Notes under the pieces: model-generated | Databases searched by the model: none | What the model saw: only the letters and a program-made list of their open reading frames with translations | Told to the model about the DNA's origin: nothing | Shown: in pieces, positions 8,180 to 63,924 of the stretch | Layout: each line of letters opens with the position of its first letter | Numbering within the stretch: position 1 is the first letter of the stretch | Position numbers and translations under genes: made by a program | Origin: Rugalucina vietnamica | Lineage: Eukaryota > Mollusca > Bivalvia > Lucinida > Lucinidae | NCBI GenBank assembly: GCA_964017185.1 | Contig: OZ024870.1 | Coordinates: forward strand, 21,165,621-21,229,620 | Direction: 5' to 3' | DNA: 64,000 nucleotides

Positions 8180-8458
8180 ATCTTTTCTTATGGCTCAAAT
8201 AAAACATGGCTTCTTTTTGCAGATGTCAAATGTGAAATTTAAATATTATTTCATGTGTTTAACTGGTTTTAAAATGGAAATTTCACCAGAAAAATTGGTA
8301 TTTTTAATAGTTATTGCTCAAAACTGGGATTTTGAGTGCATGTTAGACCCGTCTCACTGAGGCGGTTCTTGCAGGTACCAGGGATCGGATGTTTTGGTCC
8401 AAAAAAAAAAAAGAAAATAGGTATACCCTTTATGAAAAGTTGTCCGTGCATTTTACAG

Positions 8459-8490
<32 letters not shown>

Positions 8491-9105
8491 CAACTGTAAA
8501 AAATGAAAATTTCACTAGAAAAATTTGATATTTCTAGTAATTTTGCTCTAGGATTGGATCTTGGGTGCATGATGGACCCGCCTCACTGAGGCGGTTCTAG
8601 CAGGTACCCATGATCCGATGTTTTGGACCAGAAATAATAGAATTAGGTGTACCCTGCATTATTCAAACTTGCCCACGCATTTTACAGAGATTTTTATCAA
8701 CTGTGAAAAATAAAAATTTAACCAGAAAAATTTTGATATTTTTGATATAGTTCTAAGCTTGGATCTTGGATGCATGTTGGACCCGCCTCACCGAGGCGGT
8801 TCTAGCAGGTATCCATGATGGGATGTTTTAGACCAAAAATAATAAAAATGGGTATACCCTTTATGAAAAGTTGCCCATGCATGTTACAGAGATTTCACCA
8901 GAAAAATTTTGATAGTTTGCTCTAAACTTGGATATTGGGTGCATGTGGGACCCGCCTCACCGAGGCGGTTCTAGCAGGTACCCATGATCGGTGTTTTGGA
9001 CCAAAAATAAGAAAAATGGGTATACCCCTGCAGACCTCAGTATCGTTATATAAAAGTGGGTTTATAGAGGCAATCATTGTACAGACTTGTTTTTCTGATA
9101 CAATA
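8180..9105 (+). repeat. Head-to-tail cluster of GCCTC-stem MITE (family B)
   Basis: Four successive units each give GAAATTTCACCAGAAAAATT, TTGCTC(T)AAACTTGGAT, a hairpin ACCCGCCTC-ACC/ACT-GAGGCGGT, GCAGGTACCCATGATCGGAT, TTTTGGACCAAAAATAA and GGGTATACCC. The unit spacing is about 200-230 bp; the last unit alone carries the TATAAAAGTGGGTTTA tail. The first contains a T30 run. This looks like serial insertion or unequal exchange of one element. Confidence 0.75.
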
Positions 9106-11361: not shown

Positions 11362-12277
11362 ATATGATTACTTAAATCCTGGACAACAAGATTTATAGAT
11401 TGCATTATGAAATATAGGTAATTAAATCAATGAAGGATCAATGTAGCATAGTGGTATAGTCTCCAATTGTGTCATTGAGCCATATACATTATAAATGGAA
11501 TAACCTAGAAACAAGGAAGTGGATTATCTAAGAAGTAGTCTGTCTTGACATATTTGGATGATTGTTGACATCAAAATCAAGCAAATATTCAAAAGAGGTT
11601 TTAATACAACCTCAATATGCAGAATAAGCTGATCATCTAATAGATGTACTGATGTGGGCCTCAACCCTCATATATTCGAGTTGAACTAATCCGGCAGTGT
11701 GATATAGGCCTCTGGCTGTGAGATACACCTGGTCAGTATTATTAGGAAAAAAAATCAGGTTCATTGCTAATAGGTATGAGTAGCCAACTAACAGTTGGGG
11801 CTGTCTGATGCTGGGCATGAAGTATGGGCTGAGGTGTATAGTCCGAATATAGGACTTGTATATTTATAAGTCAAATGACTTTTCTGGAGGGTTTAATATG
11901 TCAGTGTTGATTTACATTGTTTGTTCCGGTATATTGTGTTTTTGGATTGTGGAAGTACCTTTGAAATGGCAAACAAAACTCTTGTTTTTAAAGTAAAATC
12001 CTTTTTACAGATTATGAGACTATCAAATAAAAGCAGTTGAAGGTTTCAATATGGCGGTACTTCCACAATACAAAATCACAGATCTATATAAGTATGAATA
12101 TATGTTGTAAATACAATGGAACCCCAGGCTAAGTTTTGACCAGAGCCGGAAAATGATTTTTTCTAGTTCATTCAGCATTTTGTCTCAATTACACAGAATA
12201 TTATGTACTTTCTCTCATCAATGTACCTTCGGTGGAGCTGAATATTTTTTCTAGATTGAAAGGTATGAAACTAGATA
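11362..12277. other. No gene seen; one inverted pair near 11,955-12,070
   Basis: TTGTGGAAGTACC at about 11,958 is matched by GGTACTTCCACAA at about 12,056, enclosing about 85 bp. This may be the core of a short palindromic element. Sequence from 12,110 to 12,277 may be the 5' leader of the LINE that follows, but no ORF1 is visible. Confidence 0.4.
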
Positions 12278-12990
12278 ATGGCTGATTTTATAACCATTTA
12301 TAGTCAGAACACAAGGGGATTGAACTGTTCTAAAAAACGAAGAGATGTTTTTCATTATTTGAGGAAGAAAAAGTACAACATTATTTGTTTACAAGATGTA
12401 CACTTAGAAAATAAGATGGAAAATTTTATAAAAAATGAATGGGGATATTCTATTTACCTAAGTGGATTGTCAAGTAACCAAAGAGGAGTAATGATTCTGA
12501 TAAGTAATAACTTTGATCAGGAAGTAACAAAAGTTATTAAAGATCCAAACGGCAACTATATTATTTTGGAAATAACCATGCAAAATCAAAAATTCACGCT
12601 GGCAAATATTTATGGCCCAAACGAAGACAGACTTCAGTTTTATAATAACCTTAAACAAAAAATTGATGAATTTGACAATGATAATGTTATAATCTGCGGC
12701 GATTGGAATTTGGTTATAGACCCTAATAAAGATACAGAAAACTACAAATCAGTAAATAATCCAAATGCCAGGTCGGTTGTGCTTAGTTTTTTTAGATATG
12801 GATTATATGGATGCATGGAGGCTATTGAATGAAGACAAGAAAGGGTTTACTTGGAGAAGATTGCAACCAGAAAAAAAGCAAGCACGTTTGGATTGTTTTT
12901 TAATTAGTCACTTTGTTTTTTTTCTTCCTGCATGCATGTGAAATAATCTCAGGGTATAGATCTGATCACTCAGGGGTACTTTTAAAACTA
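12278..12990 (+). pseudogene. LINE ORF2, APE-type endonuclease domain
   Basis: The frame from 12,278 shows the APE landmarks: SQNTRGL near residue 9, CLQDVHLE (usually LQETH; Glu replaced by Asp), ANIYGPNED, ICGDWN, then after a frame change YRSDHS near 12,952, the catalytic Ser-Asp-His. This domain nicks target DNA to prime reverse transcription. The frame changes at a T7 run (12,787-12,793) and again at a T8 run (12,916-12,923). The start ATG at 12,278 fits the usual ORF2 start just upstream of the first motif. Family membership is clear; this copy is unlikely to be active as written. Confidence 0.85.
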
Positions 12991-13660
12991 CAAATCAATT
13001 TTGATACTGAAAAAGGTCGGGGATATTGGAAGTTTAATAACACTTTACTTACGGATGTAGCATATGTTAAAAAGGTTAAACAGGTGATAAATGAAAATTT
13101 AGATAGATACCGTTTAAAAGATGCCAGTAGTGATAATACGAATAACAACAACAACAACAACAATAATAATAATAAGAATGATAATAATAATAATAATAAC
13201 AATAAAGATACAATAGATGGAAATAGTTTCAGCATAAATGATCAACTGCTATTGGAAACAATTTTACTTATGATTAGGGGAGAAACTATAAAATACAGTT
13301 CATATAAGAAAAAAAAGAATAATGAGCAAGAGCTAGAATTAGAGAAAAGTATAAAGCAAATAGAGGAGCGTGTGCAAAAAAATTTAAACTGTACATGTAT
13401 ATCTATGGAAGACATTTTGGTGTTAAATGATAAAAAAAGAAAAATTACAGGAAATTATAAAAGTTAAACTAGAAGGGGTAATGTTAAGATCAAGATGTCG
13501 ATATGAAGATTTAGGTGAAAAGCCAACAAAATATTTTTTTAAATCTTGAAAGTAGGAATTATCAGGAAAAGGTTATTAATAATTTAATAGATGAAAACGG
13601 AGAGGAAATTTATACAACACAGGATATATTAGAGACTAAAAAAATATTATAAAAATCTGT
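12991..13660 (+). pseudogene. LINE ORF2, linker between endonuclease and RT
   Basis: Typical linker phrases: GYWKFNNTLL just after the endonuclease, then an acidic/lysine-rich helix region, and GEKPTKYFF near 13,515. It is unusual in carrying a low-complexity Asn tract (13,139-13,206, AAC/AAT codons with a few Lys/Asp) that is not a normal family trait. Frame changes occur at a T7 run (13,534-13,540) and an A7 run (about 13,638-13,644). Confidence 0.75.
13139..13206 (+). repeat. AAC/AAT trinucleotide tract encoding poly-Asn
   Basis: Runs of AAC then AAT inside the LINE frame; translated as long Asn stretches broken by Lys-Asn-Asp. Likely microsatellite expansion after insertion. Confidence 0.85.
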
Positions 13661-14790
13661 ATGATGAAAAAATTCAAATTGATGAAACCCCCATTTTGTG
13701 AATTGATTGGGGAAAATGAAAACAAGCTTAACAACGAAGAAGTTCAATCTTTAGAAGGAGAATTAACATACGAAGAACTGACATTAGCGTTGAAGAATAT
13801 GAAAAATTCTAAAAGTCCGGGAAATGACGGTTTTACTGCTGAGTTTTTTAAATTCTTTTGGGTTGATTTAGGAAAATATATTTTAAGATCTATAAATTAT
13901 GCATACAGAAATGGTTTATTATCAGTTACTCAAAAACAGGGTATTATAACATGTCTTCCAAAACCAAATAAAGCCAGAAACATTTTAAAAAAATTGGCGA
14001 CCGATTTCTTTGTTAAATGTCATATATAAATTAATGTCATCAGCAATAGCTAATCGACTAAAAACCGTTTTAAATAAATTAATAAATCAGGATCAAAAAG
14101 GATTCATAACAGGTAGATTTATTGGAGAGAACATAAGGTTAGTGTATGATGTTTTATTTGAAACAAAAAAGCAAGAAATACCAGGTTTACTGCTCTCTAT
14201 TGATTTCCAACAAGCCTTCGATTCAATTTCGTGGAAATTCATCCATAAAGTTTTAAATTATTTTAACTTTGGACCTTCGATTCAGCGTTGGGTAAAATTG
14301 TTTCAAACTGGTGTTGAATCTTGTATTCTCCAAAATGGTTTTATGTCTGATTTCTTCCTTTTAAAACGCGGTTGTAGACAGGGTGATCCCATATCCCCAT
14401 ATATTTTTATTTTGTGTGTGGAAGTTTTAGGAATGATGATTCGGAAATCAAAAGATGTTAAAGGAATTAAGATAAATAACATGGAATTTAAATTAAGTCA
14501 ATATGCCGATGACACGCAAATGTTTTTGGATGGATCTGAAACATCACTAAAACAAGCATTAGTTATTTTACAAAAGTTCTACCAGATGCCTGGTTTAAAT
14601 GTTAATTTAGATAAAACTAAAGCTTTATGGATAGGATCGATGTGTAAGTCATCAAAGATACTGTGTAAAGAATTTAGTATTGATTGGGAACAGAAACCTT
14701 TAAAAATATTAGGTGTATTTTTTTCCCCAGAAGTTTTTGATATTTGGGACCACAATCTAGATAATGTTATAAAAAAGTTAAAGGTATGAT
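13661..14790 (+). pseudogene. LINE ORF2, reverse transcriptase fingers and palm
   Basis: 13,661-13,984 carries NSKSPGNDGFTAEFFKFFW, the block ahead of the palm. After an A7 run (13,986-13,992) the frame changes and reads an LLNVIYK block, GFITGRFIGENIRL, motif A SIDFQQAFDSISW (about 14,200-14,240), motif B GCRQGDPISPYIF (about 14,370-14,405) and motif C SQYADD (Asp-Asp at about 14,508-14,513). All three catalytic aspartates are present. The enzyme copies LINE RNA at the nicked target. The frame breaks again in an A6 run near 14,771. Confidence in RT is very high; only the clade is uncertain. Confidence 0.93.
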
Positions 14791-17876: not shown

Positions 17877-18011
17877 TTAGGTTTTGGTCAAGAGACCCAT
17901 CATTCCAACCCAGTACTCTCTTTCGCTGACATTGTGCATGATACCATACAATTTTGCAAATGACAAAAATAGCGAAGGAAGAAAAAACACAACAGCGACA
18001 AATTCTTTACA

Positions 18012-18182
18012 AATTACAAACGCAAAATATGTAAAGCTGAACCAACCCACAGCAAACCCTGTCGGTGGAAAAGCATGCTCATCGATCAAGGCTATATACT
18101 TAACACTTACTCGCTTCACATAGTTTTGGGTTTCTGATTTGCATATTAAACAACAGTCACACATTAGCTTGTAACCCAAACG
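18012..18182. repeat. Direct repeat at 3' side of the DIRS-type element
   Basis: Nearly identical (for example ATCGATCAAGG against ATCGACCAAGG) to 22,458-22,627 and in the same orientation. It lies directly after the truncated RT frame. Consistent with split direct repeats of PAT/Ngaro-like YR elements, but could also be left by a rearrangement. Confidence 0.85.
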
Positions 18183-18183
18183 A

Positions 18184-18600
18184 GAAATAAATACTCTTCC
18201 AGGCCTAACACAGGCTGCAATGAAATTCAGTTTCCCTATCAAAGATTGTATTCCTTTTAATGAAGCTGAATCTTTATCTAACCAGAAAATAAGAAGTGAC
18301 TTAATTTCTCTCAATCTTTCAGGTATTATTTCGAATGTCATTAATTCTGTATTGAATAGAATTCCAAGAAAAGGCATGATAGTGGAAGGTGCACAAGCTT
18401 TCTTTACTGATTCCTCAATTCCACATTTTTGCAACATAGTTCTCAAAGTCAGAAAACTGAAATCTGCTAACTCTGGTTTTTCTGCAAAAGCTAGATCATT
18501 TAGGTAATTAAGTACCAGAATACCAATTTTAAACAACATGAAAACTATTGCATTTGTCACAGATTGGCAGCAAAAACTGCTGGATCTTGACCCCATAGAT
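18184..18600 (-). pseudogene. DIRS-type reverse transcriptase, C-terminal half
   Basis: Starting at 18,596 the frame reads MGSRSSSFCCQSVTNA, then LNYLNDLAFAE, the motif C position where YLDD would be expected: the first Asp is Asn (codon at 18,498-18,500). FLGILFNTELMTFEI and the helix ending IGKLNFIAACVRPGRVFISRL are the thumb/connection typical of DIRS and LTR-type RTs. After FISRL the frame enters the 171-bp repeat and loses all similarity, so RNase H is missing. Catalytically dead if the Asn is real. Confidence 0.8.
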
Positions 18601-18660
18601 AATAAAATATAAAGGTTTCATCCTTTGGAAGCAGTAAAAACATTCAAAGGGAGATAGTAT

Positions 18661-18706
18661 GGACTATATTGCGCAATTTCGGGTAATGAACCCTCATCAG
18701 TAGCCC
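18661..18706 (-). ncRNA. Hammerhead ribozyme, copy 1
   Basis: Minus strand, 5' to 3': GGGCTA (stem I 5'), CTGATGA (core), GGGT-TCATT-ACCC (stem II hairpin), GAA, ATTG-CG-CAAT (stem III with 2-nt loop), A (cleavage base 17), TAGTCC (stem I 3'). GGGCTA pairs with TAGTCC over 6 bp including one G-U. All invariant core positions (CUGAUGA, GAA, A15.1-U16.1, H17) are present. Predicted cut is between 18,667 and 18,666. The very short stem III is like those of retrozyme and schistosome-type hammerheads. Confidence 0.9.
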
Positions 18707-19031
18707 TTTTTAAACCGGCAACGAACGCCAGACTATTGTGCTGCAATTTCGAGAATTTACACGAGGAGTCTAAATCAAAGACATATTCCTAAATTGGGTC
18801 AAATATTTATAAACATTGCTTAGAAGTATGTTTCTAAACGTGTTTTGAACACTCTGAATATCTTTACTGATCTCAAAGGACCGAAATAAAAATATAATCT
18901 GCACTATGGATGATGTACGGGGAGACTTTTTACGGCCGCCACACGGCACAACACCAGCTGCAGTAATAGCAAATAAAATATAAAGGTTTCATCATTTGGA
19001 AGCAGTAAAAACATTCAAAGGGAGATAGTAT

Positions 19032-19077
19032 GGACTATATTGCGCAATTTCGGGTAATGAACCCTCATCAGTAGCCC
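19032..19077 (-). ncRNA. Hammerhead ribozyme, copy 2
   Basis: Identical in every core and stem position to copy 1, exactly 371 bp away. Cuts at both copies would free one 371-nt RNA (19,037 to 18,667). At 19,403-19,422 the third unit keeps only stem I 3', stem III and GAA; it lacks the CTGATGA half and cannot fold into a ribozyme. Confidence 0.9.
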
Positions 19078-19427
19078 TTTTTAAACCGGCAACGAACGCC
19101 AGACTATTGTGCTGCAATTTCGAGAATTTACACGAGGAGTCTAAATCAAAGACATATTCCTAAATTGGGTCAAATATTTATAAACATTGCTTAGAAGTAT
19201 GTTTCTAAACGTGTTTTGAACACTCTGAATATCTTTACTGATCTCAAAGGACCGAAATAAAAATATAATCTGCACTATGGATGATGTACGGGGAGACTTT
19301 TTACGGCCGCCACACGGCACAACACCAGCTGCAGTAATAGCAAATAAAATATAAAGGTTTCATCCTTTGGAAGCAGTAAAAACATTCAAAGGGAGATAGT
19401 ATGGACTATATTGCGCAATTTCGGGTA

Positions 19428-20580
19428 AAACTGTATCAAAAAAGATATGTTTCTTCCACATATATGCTACCAAATTGTAAGATGAAGGACAGATGGGAAC
19501 CTGCCGGTATGCTTTGCGGAGATCGACTTTGAACAGTAAACAACCGCGCCCTTTAGTTTTGATCAACTGAACAAAATCATCCACTCTGGGAAAAATTAAA
19601 CCCATTTTCCTATCTAAATATTCAATTTTACTGATGTGGTCATTTATAGATCTACCTTTTGGAAAGCTTAAATCTAGAATAATTCTTCTCTCCGATGTGT
19701 CTTTCTTTGCAACTGAGTTTAAAGGAGAAATTTTTATACCAGATGAAAAAGGATTACTTTTGAAAGGACCTATAATGGCATTACTGGCAATCTCTTTCTG
19801 AAAATATCTATTTTCTGGAAAATCATTAGCCCCTTTATGATTCTTAAATTTACATAAATCTTTTTTGTTTATATCTGATAAAAGGGAACTGGTGTCTTTA
19901 GCACCAATTGGAAAACCAAATTCCAAAAAATCACAAACACGATAATCTTCATAATCCTGAAGCCATGATCTTATAAATTCCATATTCATTCTGGTATTAA
20001 CAGGAATTCTACAACCTTCAAAATTAAATTTCTTTGATTTGATAACCTCTTCATGAGCATTGATAAGGTAATTTATATCTGAATGATTTAAGCTGTTCTT
20101 AATGGCTGAACAAACATTGCACTTTGAAGAATGCTGACATAGATGTTCTGAATCAAATTTTTTAATTTCAGTTTGTACATTTGAAGAATCTTTAATTTTT
20201 GAAGTTTTATCTTTACAAAAAGAAGGAAAAAATAAATCTATAAGTTCTCCCTTGGATTCTATCCATTGATTTACTCTCTGTATTGAATGACCCTTAAGTC
20301 AAGCAGAAGCATGTGGGCAACTAGATGAACATTCTGGATGTGTCAGCTTAGTTTTATCTTTTAGCCAACAAGTTGCACATATATGCTGACATAGTTTTGC
20401 TTCACCTTTCAAGACTGCCATGTGTCCATTTTTATGAGGACATTTGTTCCTTTGGTACATACTGCAAAACCAAACATTTTATTTTCTTTATCTGAAGATG
20501 ATTCACTAGAATCTTTTTTGCTTACTGGCTGAGAATTCTTTTGCGGTCTTATATGTTTAGTCAGAATAGCAGTTTCAATG
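19428..20580 (-). pseudogene. DIRS-type Cys/His region and RT, N-terminal half
   Basis: From about 20,440 down a Cys/His-rich run is seen (LCQHICATCWLKDK, HPECSSSCPHA), interrupted by an in-frame stop near 20,299. This is followed by another pair of Cys (CNVCSAIKN). The open frame 19,989-19,428 gives CDFLEFGFPIG, NPFSSGIKISPLNSVAKKD, RRIILDLSFPKGRSINDHI and motif A LFKVDLRKAYRQVPI with its catalytic Asp, then ends at the ribozyme array just after VLP. These are standard DIRS-type RT blocks. Frame change near 20,450. Confidence 0.78.
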
Positions 20581-32200: not shown

Positions 32201-32970
32201 GATGTTTTACGTCCCAGTCAACAGATATTGTAATGTCGGGACGTTGCCTCCATTTTATGTAACTTTTACCCAAAATTAGTGGTAGAGCGTCGGACTCCAA
32301 ATGGAAAGGTCCTGAGTTCGACCCCCACAGGCGTCACCGTGTTGTGTCCTTGAGCAAGACACATTAACTCCCTACAGTACTGGTTAAACCCAGGAGGCGT
32401 TGGCTCTGTCCCGACATGACTGAAAAATTGTTGACTGGGACGTTAAGCCTCAACACAAACAAACAAAATTAGGGCGTATGACATCCAGAATGTGCTTCAA
32501 AGATAACTATCAAAGCGAGGGTATTCTGGGAAATCGGAAAAATATTATCGGTTTAGATTCATTTTCTAACCAACGTTTAATACATTTGACCCCATTTGGA
32601 TTGTACTAGTCTTTGTATAGACTACCCTGGTAAAAGTTGCAAAAGTTACAAAAAGTCTCTTTGGCTCCATGTTGCTTAATCTACAGGGTCACTGAAGAGG
32701 CTTAAGTAGCCGAAACCGCGGTATGGCCCAGCTCCCTTTCTCATCTATATGTTCACTGCTCTTAAAGGATCTGTTTTATTTTTATTCAAATATAACCACC
32801 AAAGTAAGACAATACGGCTTATATCTATGGATGGTTTGACTTGAACCACTTTTCCGTGGCAAGCTTAGACCTTAGCGGTTAACCAGTGATCAGACGGTCA
32901 GTCAGTAGCGTAGAAGATTTGCTTGGAGGCATAAGCAATCCATCTAATTCTCTGGGCCACAATGGGCGAT
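32200..32970 (-). repeat. SINE-like repeat, family 4, split by later insertions
   Basis: 32,205-32,278 (complement of the GTCCCGACATGACC tail) and 32,815-32,970 (complement of the CAAACCATCCATAGATATAA to GCCCATTGTGGCCCAG part) are the two ends of one copy. Family-1 SINE (32,280-32,463) interrupts it with a clean duplication; a further unknown segment lies at about 32,520-32,800. Confidence 0.6.
32280..32463 (+). mobile_element. tRNA-derived SINE, family 1, with target duplication
   Basis: GGTAGAGCGTCGGACTCC (A-box side), GGTCCTGAGTTCGACCCCC (B box), TGTCCTTGAGCAAGACAC, GGCTCTGTCCCGACATGAC, GGGACGTTAAGCC and an ACAAACAAAC tail. CAAAATTAG occurs on both sides (32,271-32,279 and 32,464-32,472), a 9-bp target-site duplication typical of LINE-driven retroposition. 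Only the first few bases of the tRNA-like head are missing. Confidence 0.8.
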
Positions 32971-41687: not shown

Positions 41688-41935
41688 TTTTTATATTCAG
41701 TTTAACGTCCCTTTCAAGATTATTTCAGCTCATATGAAACGGGTCAATCAGTAGGTGGGGCGAAAACGAGAGAACCCCGAGAAAAACCACCTGGCACACC
41801 CGCAAGCAGAACTTGGCTTGTCTCACATGTGGCCAGTGCGGGGCGCGATCCTACACCAGACACATCGGTGAGATGATCGAGTGATTAAGAAACAGCGCTC
41901 TCAACCGCTCGACCACGGGGGCCGCCATGAAGATG
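41688..41935 (-). repeat. tRNA-derived SINE, family 2
   Basis: Minus strand: GGTCGAGCGGTTGAGAGCGC (A box), GGATCGCGCCCCGCACTGGC (B-box region), CGGGTGTGCCAGGTGGTTTT, GAAAGGGACGTTAAACTGAA. Mirror copy at 45,934-46,146. Confidence 0.75.
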
Positions 41936-43014
41936 TTTGAAAAGTATGTATGAACAACAGACTGGCCAAGGTCAAGAGATGACCTTGACCTAAATTAATT
42001 ACATACTTACATCTACTCCATTAGTTGTCTGCATCTGCCTTTTTTCAGGTCTCAGGCTCCAATCGTTTTCGAAAAATCCATAGTTTTCACTTTTTCCCAT
42101 GTAACAGCCTGTTTCCAAAATTGACTTTGCCATAAAACAGGTCAAGGGCATCCCAGGTTCATCATTTTATCAAACTATAATGAGCTGGAGTCACTGATGC
42201 TTACATACCAAGTTTCGGCCTGCCGGTTCTGGAGAAGAAAATGTTTTGATTGGTTTTTACCATATATGGGCATGGCGCCCATCTTTGTCATGTGACTCGG
42301 ATTTCATGATCAAACTTTCGCTCCCCCTACCCATGGATGCTCCACATAAAATTTCAAGTTGATTGGCCAAGCGGTTTCAGAGATGAAGATGTTTGAAAAG
42401 TGTGTATGGAAAACAGACTGGCCAAGGTCAAGAGATGACCTTGACCTAATTTAATCACATGCCTTCAACTACTCCATTAGTTGTCTGCATCTACATCTTT
42501 TCATGTCTCTGGTTGCAATCATTTTCAAAAAAATCCATAGTTTTCACTTTTTCCCATGTAAAAGCCTTTGTTTCCAAAATTGACCTTGCCGTAAAATAGG
42601 TCAAGGTCATCCCAGGGTCATCATTTTGTCAAACTTTGATGGACTTGAGTCATTGATGGTAAATACCAAGTTTCGTGGAAATCGGCCCGCCGGTTCTGGA
42701 GAAGAAGATTTTTGTGTGGTTTTTACCATATATGGACGTGGCGGCCATCTTGGTCATGTGACATGGATTTTGCGATCAAACTTGAAATGCCGATACACAA
42801 GGAGGCCCCACATAAAATTTCAACCTGATTGGCCAAGTGGTTTCAGAGAAGAAGATCTTTGAAATTGTGGACGACGACGAAGACGGACGACGGACGACGG
42901 ATCATGGCCATCCTATAAGCTCTCCTTGTGAGCCTTCGGCTCAGGTGAGCTAAAAAAAAAAGACTAGATGTTTCTCAGTTTTATAATCATTTATTTACTT
43001 GAAAATAACATTGT

Positions 43015-52491: not shown

Positions 52492-54383
52492 AACCAGAGG
52501 ACCAATGGTCCTGTAAAAGCTCACCTGAGACCTGAGATATATACGTGTACCAATAAACTTGAATGGTACAATGCATGTATATAACCCTAGGGCTGGGTCT
52601 GAAAAACTCCTGGACTCAATGTCTTTTTAAATCATAAAAATTCAGTCCATTTGCCAATTAACTGCAAGTTTTGTCCTTCAAATGACATTTTAACAATTTT
52701 CTCCATTCAAATGCATGGGCGATCTAAGTTGACCTTGCCGTGAAATAGGTCAAGGTCATCCCAGTGTCATGATTTATACAAATTTTGTAGACCTCCATTC
52801 CTAAATGCTTCATGCCAAGTTTCAAAATCATAGGCCTTCTGGTTCTGAAGAAGAAGATTTTTAAAATTTTGCTATTTATAGCCATGGCGGCCATCTTGGT
52901 CATGTGACCTTGACCATTTATATAAACTTTCATTTCCTCTTCCTAAGAATGCTCCACATAAAGTTTGGCTTTGATTGGTCAAGCAGTTTCTGAGAAAAAG
53001 CTGTTGGAATATTATGGTCATCTACATGTATATAGCTCCGGGGCAGACAACCCCTGGGCCTAAAATATTTTCATAAGCATAGATCTTCTGTCCATTTGCT
53101 CATTCCTTGCAAATTTTCTGCCATTACATGACATTTTCCTATTTTTCCCATTCAAATGCAGGGGCGACCTAAGTTGACCTTGCCGTAAAATAGGTCAAGG
53201 TCATCCCAGGGTCATGATTTATATAAACTTTGTAGACCTTCATTCCCAAGTTTCAAAATCATAGGCCTTCTGGTTCTGAAGGAGAAGATTTTTAAAGGTT
53301 TTTGCTATTTATAGCCATGGCGGCCGTCTTGGTCATGTGACCTTGACCATTCATACAAACTTACATTCCCTCTTCCTAAGGATGATCCACATGAAGTTTG
53401 GCTTTGATTGGCCTAGCGGTTTCAGAGACGATGTTTCAATATTATGGTCATATATATGTATATCCGGGGCAGGGGCAGACAACCCCTTAGGGACAAAATA
53501 TTTTCTTAAACATAAATCTTCTGTCCATTTGCTCATTTCTAGCAAGTTTTCTGCCATTTAATTACATTTTCCTATTTTTTCCCATTCCAATGCATGGGAG
53601 ACCCAAGTTGACCTTGCCGTAAAATAGGTCAAGGTCATCACACGGTCATGATTTATATAAATTTTGTAGAGCTCCATTCCCAGATGCTTCACACCAAGTT
53701 TCAAAATACCTGGTTCTGAAGAAGAAGATTTTTAAACGTTTTTGCTATTTATAGCCATGGCTGCCATCTTGGTCATGTGATCTTGACCATTTATATAAAC
53801 TTTCATTCCCCCTTCCCAAGGATGCTTCACATGAAGTTTGGCTTTGATTGGCTTAGCGGTTTCAGAGAAGATGTTTGAATAGTATGGTCATATACATGTA
53901 TATAGCCCCGGGGCAGGGGCAGACAACCCCCCAGGGGCTAAAATTTTCTATTAACATTAATCTTCTGTCCATTTGCCTATTCCCAGTAAGGTTTACCCAT
54001 TAAATAGCATTTTACCATTTTTCCCATTCAAATGCATTGGCGACCTGTTGACCTTGCCGTAAAATAGGTCAAGGTCATCCTAGGGTCAAAGTTTATATAA
54101 ACTATGATTGGCCCGCTTCCCCGATGCTACATACCAAGTTCCGTGGAAATCGGCCCACTGGTTCTGGAGAAGAAGATTTTTAAAGGTTTTTGTTATTTAT
54201 AGCCATGGCGGCCATCTTGGTCATGTGACCTCGACCATTTATACAAACTTTTGTTCCCCCTTCCTAAGGATGTTCCACATGAAGTTTGGCTTTGATTGGC
54301 CAAGCGGTTTCAGAGGAGATCTTTGAAATTGTGAACGGACGGACGACGGAGCATGGCCATCCTATAAGCTCACTTTGTGAGCT
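52492..54383 (+). mobile_element. Hairpin-ended Helitron-like element, core type 2
   Basis: Starts AACCAGAGGACCAATGGTCC, followed by GCTCACCTGAGACCTGAG; ends CTATAAGCTCACTTTGTGAG-CT (a shortened hairpin) after a GGACGGACGACGG microsatellite. The core is about four units of 460-470 bp: GACCTTGCCGTAAAATAGG, TCAAGGTCATCCCAGGGTCA, ATCATAGGCCTTCTGG, CTATTTATAGCCATGGCGGC, TAGCCCCGGGGCAGGGGCAG. Short frames within are shadows of the repeat units. Confidence 0.65.
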
Positions 54384-60873: not shown

Positions 60874-62015
60874 ATATTTTCCCATGACGCCCCCGGGGCT
60901 GGGGCCTGTATGGACCCCAGGGACACGGTTGGCAGGATTTATAAAGTGGACCACTATACATTGCTACGCATAAAACATGAAAGCTATTGGCCTTGTGGTT
61001 TCGGAGATTGTTTTATGTTTTTCCCATTGTAAGTCTACGGGAGCTAATGGCCCCCAGGGCGGGACCATTTTTGACCCCAGGGACATGGTTTGCAGGATTT
61101 ATAAAGAGGATTACTACACATTGCTACATACAAAATATGAGAGCTCTTGGCTTTGTGGTTTCGGAGATTTTTTCCCATGACGCCCCCGGGGCGTGGCCTG
61201 TATTGATGCCAGGGGCACTGTTGGCAGGATTTGTAAAGAGGTCCACTATACATTGCTACACACAAAATATGAAAGCTCTGCGCCTTGTGGGTTCGGAGAA
61301 GATTTTTTTTGTTTTTCTCATTGTAAGTCTGTGGGAGCTAATGACCCCCAGGGCGGGGCCATTTTTGACCCAGGAGCATGGTTTGCAGGATTTATAAAGA
61401 GTACATCTACACATTGCTACATACAAAATATGAAAGCTCTGGGCTTTATGGTTTTGGAGAAGAAGATTTTTTATGTTCTCCCATGACGCCCCCGGGACAG
61501 CGCCTGTTTGAACCCCAGTTGTACGGTTGGCAGGATTTATAAAGAGGAACACGATACATTGCTACACACAAAATATGAAAGAAGATTTTTTTATGGTTTT
61601 CCCATTGTTAGTCTATGGGGGCTATCTGTTGTTTTTATTGCCATGGAAACCAGAGTTCCAATCCGACCTGGCCCAAAACCTAATGCAACCTTTCCCCTAC
61701 CCAAATGATGCTTCTGATAAAATTTGATTGCAATTGGCTGACTAGTTACGGAGATATTTGTATTTGAAAGTGTGGACGGACGGACGAACGGACGACGGCT
61801 CGACTACTATATTATAAGCTCACCTTGTGAGCCTTCGGCTCAGGTGAGCTAAATAAATTAGAGAGAGATACAGTGCCAAGATGTCGCCTACGCAGAGGAC
61901 CAGGAAAAAAAAAGAGAAGCCATCTGAACGTTACAGGTCTATCGACTAGTCAACGGTGTAATCATCGCTCAACAGATGGATGAACAGCTAATTCCACAGT
62001 CAGGTGGGATTTCAT

Positions 62016-63924
62016 AACCAGAGGACCAATGGTCCTGGAGACGCTCACCTGAGACCTGAGATATATACATGTACCAATAAACTTGTTAGACTACAATGGT
62101 ACAATGCATGTATATAACCCTAGGGCAGGGTCAGAATAACTCCTGGAGTCAATGTCTTTTTCAAATCATAAAAATTCAGTCCATTTGCCAATTAACTGCA
62201 AGTTTTGTCCTTCAAATGACATTTTAACAATTTTCTCCATTCAAATGCATGGGCGATCTAAGTTGACCTTGCCGTGAAATAGGTCAAGGTCATCCCAGTG
62301 TCATGATTTATACAAATTTTGTAGACCTCCGTTCCTTAATTCTTCATGCCAAGTTTCAAAATCATAGGCCTTCTGGTTCTGAAGAAGAAGATTTTTAATA
62401 TTTTTTGCTATTTATAGCCATGGCGGCCATCTTGGTCATGTGACATTGACCATTTATATAAACTTTCATTCCCCCTTCCCAAGGATGCTCCACATGAAGT
62501 TTGGCTTTGATTAGCCCAGTGGTTTCTGAGAAAAAGCTGTTTGAATATTATAGCTCCGGGGCAGGGACAGACAACCCCTGGGCCTAAAATATTTTCATAA
62601 GCATAAATCTTCTGTCAATTTGCTCATTCCTAGCAAGTATAACATTTTCCTAATTTTCCCCATTCAAATGCATGGGCGACCTAAGTTGACCTTGCCGTAA
62701 AATAGGTCAAGGTCATCCCAGGGTCATGATTTATATAAACTTTGTAGAGCTCCATTCCCAGATGTTTCATACCAAAATCATAGGCCTTCTGGTTCTGAAG
62801 AAGATTTTTAAACGTTTTTGCTATTTATAGCCATGGCGGCCATCTTAGTCATGTGACCTTGACCATTTATACAAACTTTCATTCCCTCTTCCTAAGAATG
62901 CTCCCCAAAAAGTTTGGCTTCGATTGGCTTAATGGTTTCAGAGAAGAAGATGTTTAAATATTATGGTCATATACATGTATATACCCGGGGCAGAGGCAGA
63001 CAACCCCCTGGGCCCAAAATGTTTTCTTAAACATAAATCTTCTGTCCATTTGCTCATTTCTAGCACGTTTTCTGCCATTTAATTACATTTTCCTATTTTT
63101 CCCATTCCAATGCATGGGAGACCTAAGTTGACCTTGCCGTAAAATAGGTCAAGGTCATCCCAGGGTCATGATTTATATGAACTTTGTAGAGCTTTATTCC
63201 CAGATGCTTCACACCAAGTTTCAAAATCATAGGCCTTCTGGTTCTTGAGAAGAAGATTTTTAAACGTTTTTGCTATTTATAGCCCTGGCAGCCATCTTGG
63301 TCACGAGACCTTGACCATTTATATAAACTTTCATTCCCCTTTCCCAAGGATGCTCCACATGAAGTTTGGCTTTGATTAGCCTAGTGGTTTCAGAGAAGAA
63401 GATGTTTGAATAGTATGGTCATATACATGTATATAGCCCCGGGGCAGGGGCAGACAACCCCCCAGGGGCTTAAATTTTCCATTAACACTAATCTTCTGTC
63501 CATTTGCATATTCCCAGTAAGTTTTACCCATTAAATAGCATTTTACCATTTTTTCCATTCAAATGCATTGGCGACCTAAGTTGACCTTGCCGTAAAATAG
63601 AACAAGATCATCCTAGGGTCATGATTTATATAAACTATGATGGGCCCGCGTCCCTGATGCTAGATACCAAGTTTCGTGGAAATCGGCCCACTGGTTCCGG
63701 AGAAGAAGATTTTTAAAGGTTTTTGCTATTTATAGCCATGGCGGCCATCTTGGTTATGTGACCTGGACCATTTACATAAACTTTCGTTCCCCCTTCCTAA
63801 GGATGCTCCACTTGAAGTTTGGCTTTGATTGGCCAAGCGGTTTCAGAGGAGAAGATCTTCGAAATTGTGAACGACGGACGGACGCCGGAGCATGGGTATA
63901 CTATAAGCTCACCTGTGAGCAGCT
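62016..63924 (+). mobile_element. Hairpin-ended Helitron-like element, core type 2
   Basis: ACCAGAGGACCAATGGTCCT at 62,016, CGCTCACCTGAGACCTGAG, then about four type-2 units and a GACGGACGGACGCCGG microsatellite, ending AAGCTCACCTGTGAGCAGCT. Nearly the same length and order as 52,492-54,383, so the two are close relatives. Confidence 0.65.

Follow-up and report, generated by a model that had tools for sequence, protein, structure and literature searches.

The 2.2-copy tandem array at positions 18601 to 19428 of the window represents a recent insertion of an animal retrozyme present in high copy number, and its 371-bp family is a new member of the kind of type I hammerhead retrozyme described in Mytilus. 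The window is the whole stretch of DNA that was analysed, 64,000 nucleotides of the lucinid bivalve Rugalucina vietnamica (assembly GCA_964017185.1, contig OZ024870.1, positions 21,165,621 to 21,229,620). On the evidence of where copies of this family begin and end in the host genome, and of how their units vary, we consider it likely that the element is a non-autonomous non-LTR retrozyme whose RNA circle, made by self-cleavage, is copied from a fixed internal start for 1.0 to 8.5 laps.

The tandem array and its hammerhead ribozymes

TRF reports a period of 371 bp and 2.2 head-to-tail copies with the minus strand as the sense strand, as the first-pass annotation of this DNA had it, and direct comparison of the copies shows the array boundaries to be exact at both ends (Table 1). 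The copies differ at a single substituted site, in the middle unit. The remaining, partial unit, which had been described as truncated within the ribozyme, does start there, in the 3' strand of stem II. The unit has a GC content of 0.38 and is non-coding: the longest stop-to-stop frame lying wholly within the array has 72 aa, and 371 is not a multiple of 3.

Table 1. Features of the retrozyme insertion, the interrupted frame and the second family member (positions in the window)
Feature	Positions	Strand	Basis
Retrozyme insertion, 2.2 tandem 371-nt units	18601..19428	-	TRF; direct comparison; net insertion of 826 bp
First unit, 5'-truncated to 86 nt, starting in the stem II 3' strand of the ribozyme	19343..19428	-	Direct comparison
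Full unit with the sole substitution (18994)	18972..19342	-	Direct comparison
Full unit, 3'-most	18601..18971	-	Direct comparison
66-nt tail, from cleavage site to fixed 3' terminus (TTTTATT)	18601..18666	-	40/40 arrays end at unit positions 369-371
Type I hammerhead, predicted cleavage 19038/19037	19032..19077	-	Descriptor; model R1, 48.9 bits
Type I hammerhead, predicted cleavage 18667/18666	18661..18706	-	Descriptor; model R1, 48.9 bits
N-terminal part of the interrupted reverse-transcriptase frame; last residues retrozyme-derived	19360..20298	-	Protein relatives
C-terminal part of the interrupted reverse-transcriptase frame	17877..18617	-	Joined flanks give one open frame
Diverged single-unit member, SINE just upstream	32475..32786	+	Smith-Waterman score 148 vs maximum of 62 in 500 shuffles
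Hammerhead of the second member, predicted cleavage 32723/32724	32686..32729	+	Descriptor; model R1, 48.9 bits

Each full unit contains a complete hammerhead, with a 6-bp stem I that includes one G-U pair, the CTGATGA and GAA core elements, a 4-bp stem II with a 5-nt loop, and an A at the cleavage position; stem III is, in the hammerheads of the window array, the 10-nt palindrome ATTGCGCAAT. A hammerhead descriptor run over the window recovered exactly the two cores that had been annotated, with the same coordinates and order of parts, together with a third motif on the plus strand. The chance level in first-order Markov shuffles was 0.017 loose matches per window, with 0 strict matches in 60 shuffles, and a laxer descriptor, for which 0.95 matches per window are expected by chance, returned the same three motifs only. 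The predicted cuts in the array are 371 nt apart, and cleavage at both would free a single unit, as had been proposed.

A covariance search, suggested earlier as a check, gave a divided answer. With Rfam, no hammerhead (RF00163) match was found over the whole window at the gathering threshold, and none in the regions of the array and of the third motif when E values as high as 10 were allowed; these scans returned low-scoring matches to unrelated families only. By contrast, a covariance model built from 17 hammerheads, of which 16 lie in viral contigs and 1 in a bacterial contig (model R1), gave 48.9 bits for all three window motifs and 13.0 bits for the next-best place. This score is partly circular because the search pattern behind R1 was derived from the two window ribozymes; the contributions of the core and stem II are circular, and those of stems I and III and of the spacing are independent.

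Some further sequence features of the unit and its surroundings may be mentioned here. An imperfect 29-bp inverted repeat (79%) links unit positions 92-120 with 323-351 and adds to the long arm of the modelled circle. At 18750-18731 on the minus strand, and at the equivalent place in the next unit, the DNA upstream of the ribozyme is similar to the 3' half of the ribozyme itself (GAAATTG...ATAGTC) and is possibly a decayed second hammerhead. The window also holds five other tandem arrays with periods of ~205-466 bp (8271-8895, 41927-42864, 52627-54327, 60875-61581, and 62639-63863), in which model R1 finds no hammerhead at E values of 0.01 or less.

A second, diverged member of the family

The third hammerhead motif lies in a diverged, single-unit relative of the array. 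This sequence aligns with unit positions 53-371, stopping at the 3' end of the unit, with a score far above the shuffle mean of 41 (Table 1). A BLAST search of the window with the unit missed it, and it was detected by gapped alignment. The tail alone is weakly matched (its score is equalled by 5 of 2,000 shuffles and also elsewhere in the window), so the case for homology rests on the whole unit. Between the first and the second ribozyme, 4 of 15 base pairs are changed on both sides, with compensatory changes in all three stems, and the stem III of the second member is palindromic as well. Pairing is kept in 29 of the 29 cells counted; in the shuffle control, which is weak with only two distinct rows, 26 of 500 shuffles do as well.

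A SINE, presumably of the tRNA-like type, occupies positions 32271-32472 on the plus strand, is flanked by the 9-bp repeat CAAAATTAG, and adjoins the second retrozyme on its upstream side. A second retrozyme unit upstream of this SINE was considered and set aside as unconvincing, the two-unit alignment scoring 160 as against 148 for one unit.

Predicted folding of the ribozymes

Both ribozymes probably work as dimers, that is, as double hammerheads, judging from the folding models: cutting in this form is probable because stem III is a palindrome. For each of them, the unconstrained two-strand MFE structure is exactly the double hammerhead, with -33.5 kcal/mol versus -19.0 kcal/mol for two monomers of the first ribozyme and -39.3 versus -28.8 kcal/mol for the second. 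The MFE structure of the monomer differs from the hammerhead fold and is no stronger than those of shuffles (z scores of -0.91, -1.78, +1.42, and +0.71). In the linear 828-nt array RNA, a forced double hammerhead lies 1.8 kcal/mol above the MFE and two single ones lie 10.7 kcal/mol above it. The hammerhead fold of the modelled circle lies 4.3 kcal/mol above the MFE of the circle, whose stability is ordinary, with 11 of 60 shuffles folding as well. Action as a hammerhead dimer has been reported for axolotl retrozymes, according to the parts of that account available to us (PMC7229834). A CCUUU/AAAGG stem-loop appears in the MFE structure of the first tail and is absent from that of the second.

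Dispersed copies examined share one 3' end

The first-pass annotation had suggested looking for other 371-bp tandems in the genome, and the family indeed turned out to be high-copy. In the 1.09-Gb host genome (47 contigs), the unit as a query yielded 3,059 first-look, unvalidated candidates. Forty of these were scored, giving at least 114 matches; these form 40 arrays, each of which was retrieved together with ~600 bp of flanking sequence to either side. By selection, all hold about one full unit or more. They are dispersed on 16 contigs, and their flanks differ by eye save for one pair, L156 and L165 (G000 C12 and C8), which lie on different contigs within common flanking sequence, so that duplication of a larger repeat probably carried the retrozyme along in this pair.

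All 40 arrays end at nearly the same place, at unit position 371 (37 arrays), 370 (2 arrays), or 369 (1 array); without the duplicate L165, the counts are 36, 2, and 1 among 39. Another 3' end could have revealed itself in the 22 of 40 arrays that contain at least two full units. This fixed end lies 66 nt past the cleavage site, and therefore the ribozyme does not set it. The 5' starts, in contrast, are scattered over the whole unit, and none of the 39 lies within 3 nt of the cleavage junction (for this analysis L165 was dropped, the start of L156 was corrected by eye, and other starts at position 1 were kept as BLAST gave them). They depart slightly from a uniform distribution (KS p = 0.02), and the sampling is biased. 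An array end at the cleavage site was accordingly rejected as a candidate, and the truncation inside the ribozyme in the window array, which had been taken as expected for an integrated linear copy, does not mark a linear end made by the ribozyme. Array lengths range from 378 to 3,171 bp, or 1.0 to 8.5 units. Over the 40 arrays, target-site duplication was not above the control, with a mean flank match of 4.38 nt versus 4.30 nt for mismatched flanks, and the flanks at the junctions are slightly richer in A+T (0.69 and 0.68 versus 0.64).

Translated copies, matched through spurious reading frames of the unit, agree with the fixed 3' terminus, with a caveat about selection. Among the best 240 of 743 hits, drawn from two lists that may overlap, the residues anchoring the terminus (a match of at least 60% was required) were present in 158, of which 60 leave the element there, 91 enter the next unit, and 7 are too short to tell. 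The 60 leaving copies show 73-100% identity as far as the terminus, which falls to 50% at the first residue after it and to 1-11% beyond, a drop whose sharpness is partly by construction because the classes were split on the ten residues after the terminus. Under a stricter check, 40 of these 60 copies were clean, with no two flanks alike, and 20 reached a score of at least 25 with a different frame of the unit, including at least four frame-shifted tandems (P0128, P0167, P0198, and P0307). Frame B supplied 38 anchors: 10 copies were tandem and 9 too short, and the 19 classed as flank include at least 5 frame-shifted tandems. As to the upstream ends, 81 translated copies had at least 10 upstream residues; of these, 44 represented the unit in other frames and were set aside, and the 37 left began at 26 positions.

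A proposed route of circle copying

A fixed 3' end together with scattered 5' ends is the usual trace of target-primed reverse transcription in non-LTR retroelements. The 66-nt tail is read here as the region in which reverse transcription would start. For the 371-nt unit, we infer self-cleavage, circularity, and a helper enzyme, in the following sequence. In a transcript of tandem units, every hammerhead would self-cleave, probably in the double form, and a host ligase would close the 371-nt monomer into a circle. A reverse transcriptase acting in trans, most likely that of a Penelope-like element, would nick genomic DNA, and copying would begin at a fixed internal site of the circle, TTTTA(TT), about 66 nt past the ligation site. 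The enzyme would then round the circle 1.0 to 8.5 times and drop off anywhere; each insertion would then have the same 3' end, a 5' end that varies, and repeated units identical in sequence.

Multimeric cDNA made from circles is part of the published retrozyme model, as far as the available parts of its sources go (PMC7229834; PMC7761336); the circle model proposed here fits this scheme and adds a start site. The Penelope-like enzyme is the best candidate for the helper because, in the portion of the account at hand, the purified protein starts reverse transcription inside its RNA, past the hammerhead, at AT-rich nicks (PMC11167929).

We incline to the broader view that rolling-circle target-primed reverse transcription spreads animal retrozymes, with the helper recognising a short tail immediately past the ribozyme and starting at a single internal position of the RNA circle, the ribozyme making the template rather than the insertion ends, and the number of laps setting the length of the array. 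If true, this would give RNA circles produced by ribozymes a concrete way of returning to the genome. The helper could also be traced through the fixed 3' terminus and the tail, as the helper element should share the tail.

Unit clonality, ribozyme variation, and other routes to the arrays

Units of one array are mostly alike. Among 85 full units compared, divergence within arrays (gaps excluded, as in all these values) has a median of 0.27% and a mean of 0.73% (97 pairs in 22 arrays), against a median of 3.22% between arrays. At 16 variable columns, 347 of the 352 array-by-column tests are unmixed, and 4 of the 5 exceptions come from a single array, L178. Pairs of units more than 2% apart, and up to 3.5%, occur in 6 of the 22 arrays (L153, L164, L166, L172, L178, and L186), whereas in two of the longest arrays, L189 (8 full units) and L158 (6), the compared units are fully identical.

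These data bear on two other routes by which the same retrozyme could have formed its arrays. In the first, the template would be a linear multimer transcribed from a tandem locus and left uncleaved, with the internal start still at the tail and the ribozyme dispensable for insertion; copying would extend over several units, a scheme that has been put forward for Penelope-like elements. Circles indeed need not be the template, because ribozyme mutants of the Anolis Penelope-like element left insertion unchanged and unprocessed RNA was the dominant substrate, in the part of the study available (PMC11167929); insertions here cross the cleavage junction freely, and the diverged units in the six arrays listed above are what a mixed multimer would give. 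However, an old, diverged parent array would give mixed units, and nearly all of the allele tests show one allele per array. Since a young parent array would yield unmixed units too, these tests are not decisive; overall, we regard a linear template as unlikely. In the second route, about one unit plus a fragment would be inserted, and unequal crossing-over or replication slippage would afterwards lengthen the array at its site, as in satellites. The full identity of the units in L189 and L158 is what recent local amplification would give, and array ends would be preserved. Nothing decisive speaks against such growth, as the spread of array lengths is equally expected from 1 to 8.5 laps inserted directly, but we find it decidedly improbable as the source of the arrays. 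Copying of a circle from one internal start is the reading that we retain.

The 40 arrays together contain 106 hammerheads. Of these, 78 are identical over the aligned columns save for one base of stem III and for core position 7, which is C or T. Among the remaining 28 rows, there are stem changes, at least 5 rows with an altered conserved core base, and two rows cut by an array end. The stems covary weakly in this young family, the observed values being reached in 25 to 154 of 500 shuffles. The commonest ribozyme polymorphism is at core position 7, where C, T, and A are all seen; no other position of the core motif CUGANGA is free. A plain satellite, or a chance hammerhead-like motif without ribozyme function, would be in keeping with the lack of an Rfam match. 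We give this almost no credence, considering the absence of strict matches from the shuffles, the retention of all stems with compensatory changes in the diverged relative, and the placement of the commonest polymorphism on a free position.

Relation to known hammerhead elements

By description, and as far as the available parts of the published account go, the family resembles the non-LTR retrozymes of Mytilus galloprovincialis, which have units of ~350-390 bp, a type I hammerhead, and ~5,000 motifs (Cervera and de la Pena 2020, PMC7229834). The unit of 371 bp falls within that range and likewise has one type I hammerhead, a low GC content, and a tandem arrangement; as to copy number, the ~5,000 Mytilus motifs compare with the unvalidated candidates counted here. 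Several features of metazoan non-LTR retrozymes are found together: a type I hammerhead in every unit, tandem non-coding units of ~150-450 bp with a GC content below 50%, and dispersed copies. Unlike in the Mytilus account, so far as it was available, the 3' end here is fixed off the cleavage site, target-site duplication does not exceed the control, and the arrays are mostly clonal. The missing duplications are not disqualifying because the same source, in the part at hand, describes those of metazoan retrozymes, longer than 4 bp, as occurring "when present" (PMC7229834). The portions of the open-licence PMC literature available to us hold no report that animal retrozymes have clonal arrays or a fixed 3' terminus lying away from the cleavage site. 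A review, likewise available in part, states that metazoan retrozymes have no conserved motif revealing the autonomous element that mobilises them (PMC7761336).

Penelope-like elements, as described in the accessible part of the account (PMC11167929), are similar in having a hammerhead upstream of an internal start of reverse transcription and in occurring as tandem copies; by our arithmetic, the start lies ~85-92 nt past the cut in the Penelope-like element and 66 nt past it here. The unit described here differs in that it encodes no protein, whereas Penelope-like elements encode a telomerase-like reverse transcriptase, with or without GIY-YIG. Its stem III is a palindrome, whereas the available Penelope-like account describes stems I and II only, and its targets are only slightly AT-richer than their surroundings, whereas the Penelope-like nicks are AT-rich (PMC11167929). 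Plant LTR retrozymes are also non-coding, ribozyme-bearing, non-autonomous elements with tandem cleavage sites; in the parts of the sources at hand, however, they carry type III ribozymes in LTRs, with ~700 bp between ribozymes and 4-bp target-site duplications (PMC4918200, PMC7761336).

The exact pattern of the window hammerheads had 0 matches in viral contigs, and a looser pattern led to phage hammerheads. A 19-base pattern of core and stem II was found in at least 120 viral contig stretches (L001-L120), compared with 9 (L121-L129) in a 257-billion-base bacterial and archaeal collection. Stems I and III are formed in 128 of the 137 pattern matches, most printed rows having a 6-bp stem I, which indicates that the pattern marks real hammerheads. 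These phage and bacterial hammerheads have the same core, stem II, and loop pattern as those of the window, a likeness imposed by the search, but they have a longer stem III and are mostly single copies.

The interrupted reverse-transcriptase gene

The window array sits inside a retroelement reverse-transcriptase frame, as annotated at first pass. When the flanks are joined, they form one open frame that reads at the insertion point as most relatives do (Table 1). Of 12 relatives other than the window protein, 11 read through this point and one (P0012) shifts frame; from these protein relatives, we infer an empty site without the array. By reading, at most 3 bp are duplicated at the junctions of this locus. 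At E values of 0.001 or less, the interrupted frame has 144 relatives, and species names among the 120 listed are Mya arenaria (2) and Actinostola (1). An RVT_1 domain was found in all 5 relatives scanned and RVT_3 in 1 of these 5, whereas a Pfam search of the two frame pieces of the window gave no RVT_1 match.

The DIRS type assigned to the interrupted gene at first pass is a putative one. In DIRS retrotransposons, a tyrosine recombinase follows the reverse transcriptase and RNase H; no tyrosine recombinase was found by Pfam in the window frame pieces scanned. As a target, this gene does not seem to be special, the examined arrays being spread over 16 contigs. The overall description of the locus as a retrozyme-like hammerhead tandem within a reverse-transcriptase gene stands on the motif statistics, the diverged member, the hammerheads of the genomic arrays, and the joined flanks; the linear-end signature, a special role of the target, and the DIRS label are not supported. 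Near the interrupted gene, at window positions 12275-14789 on the plus strand, lies a LINE-like element with an endonuclease domain (Exo_endo_phos) and RVT_1, its coding sequence split among several frames.
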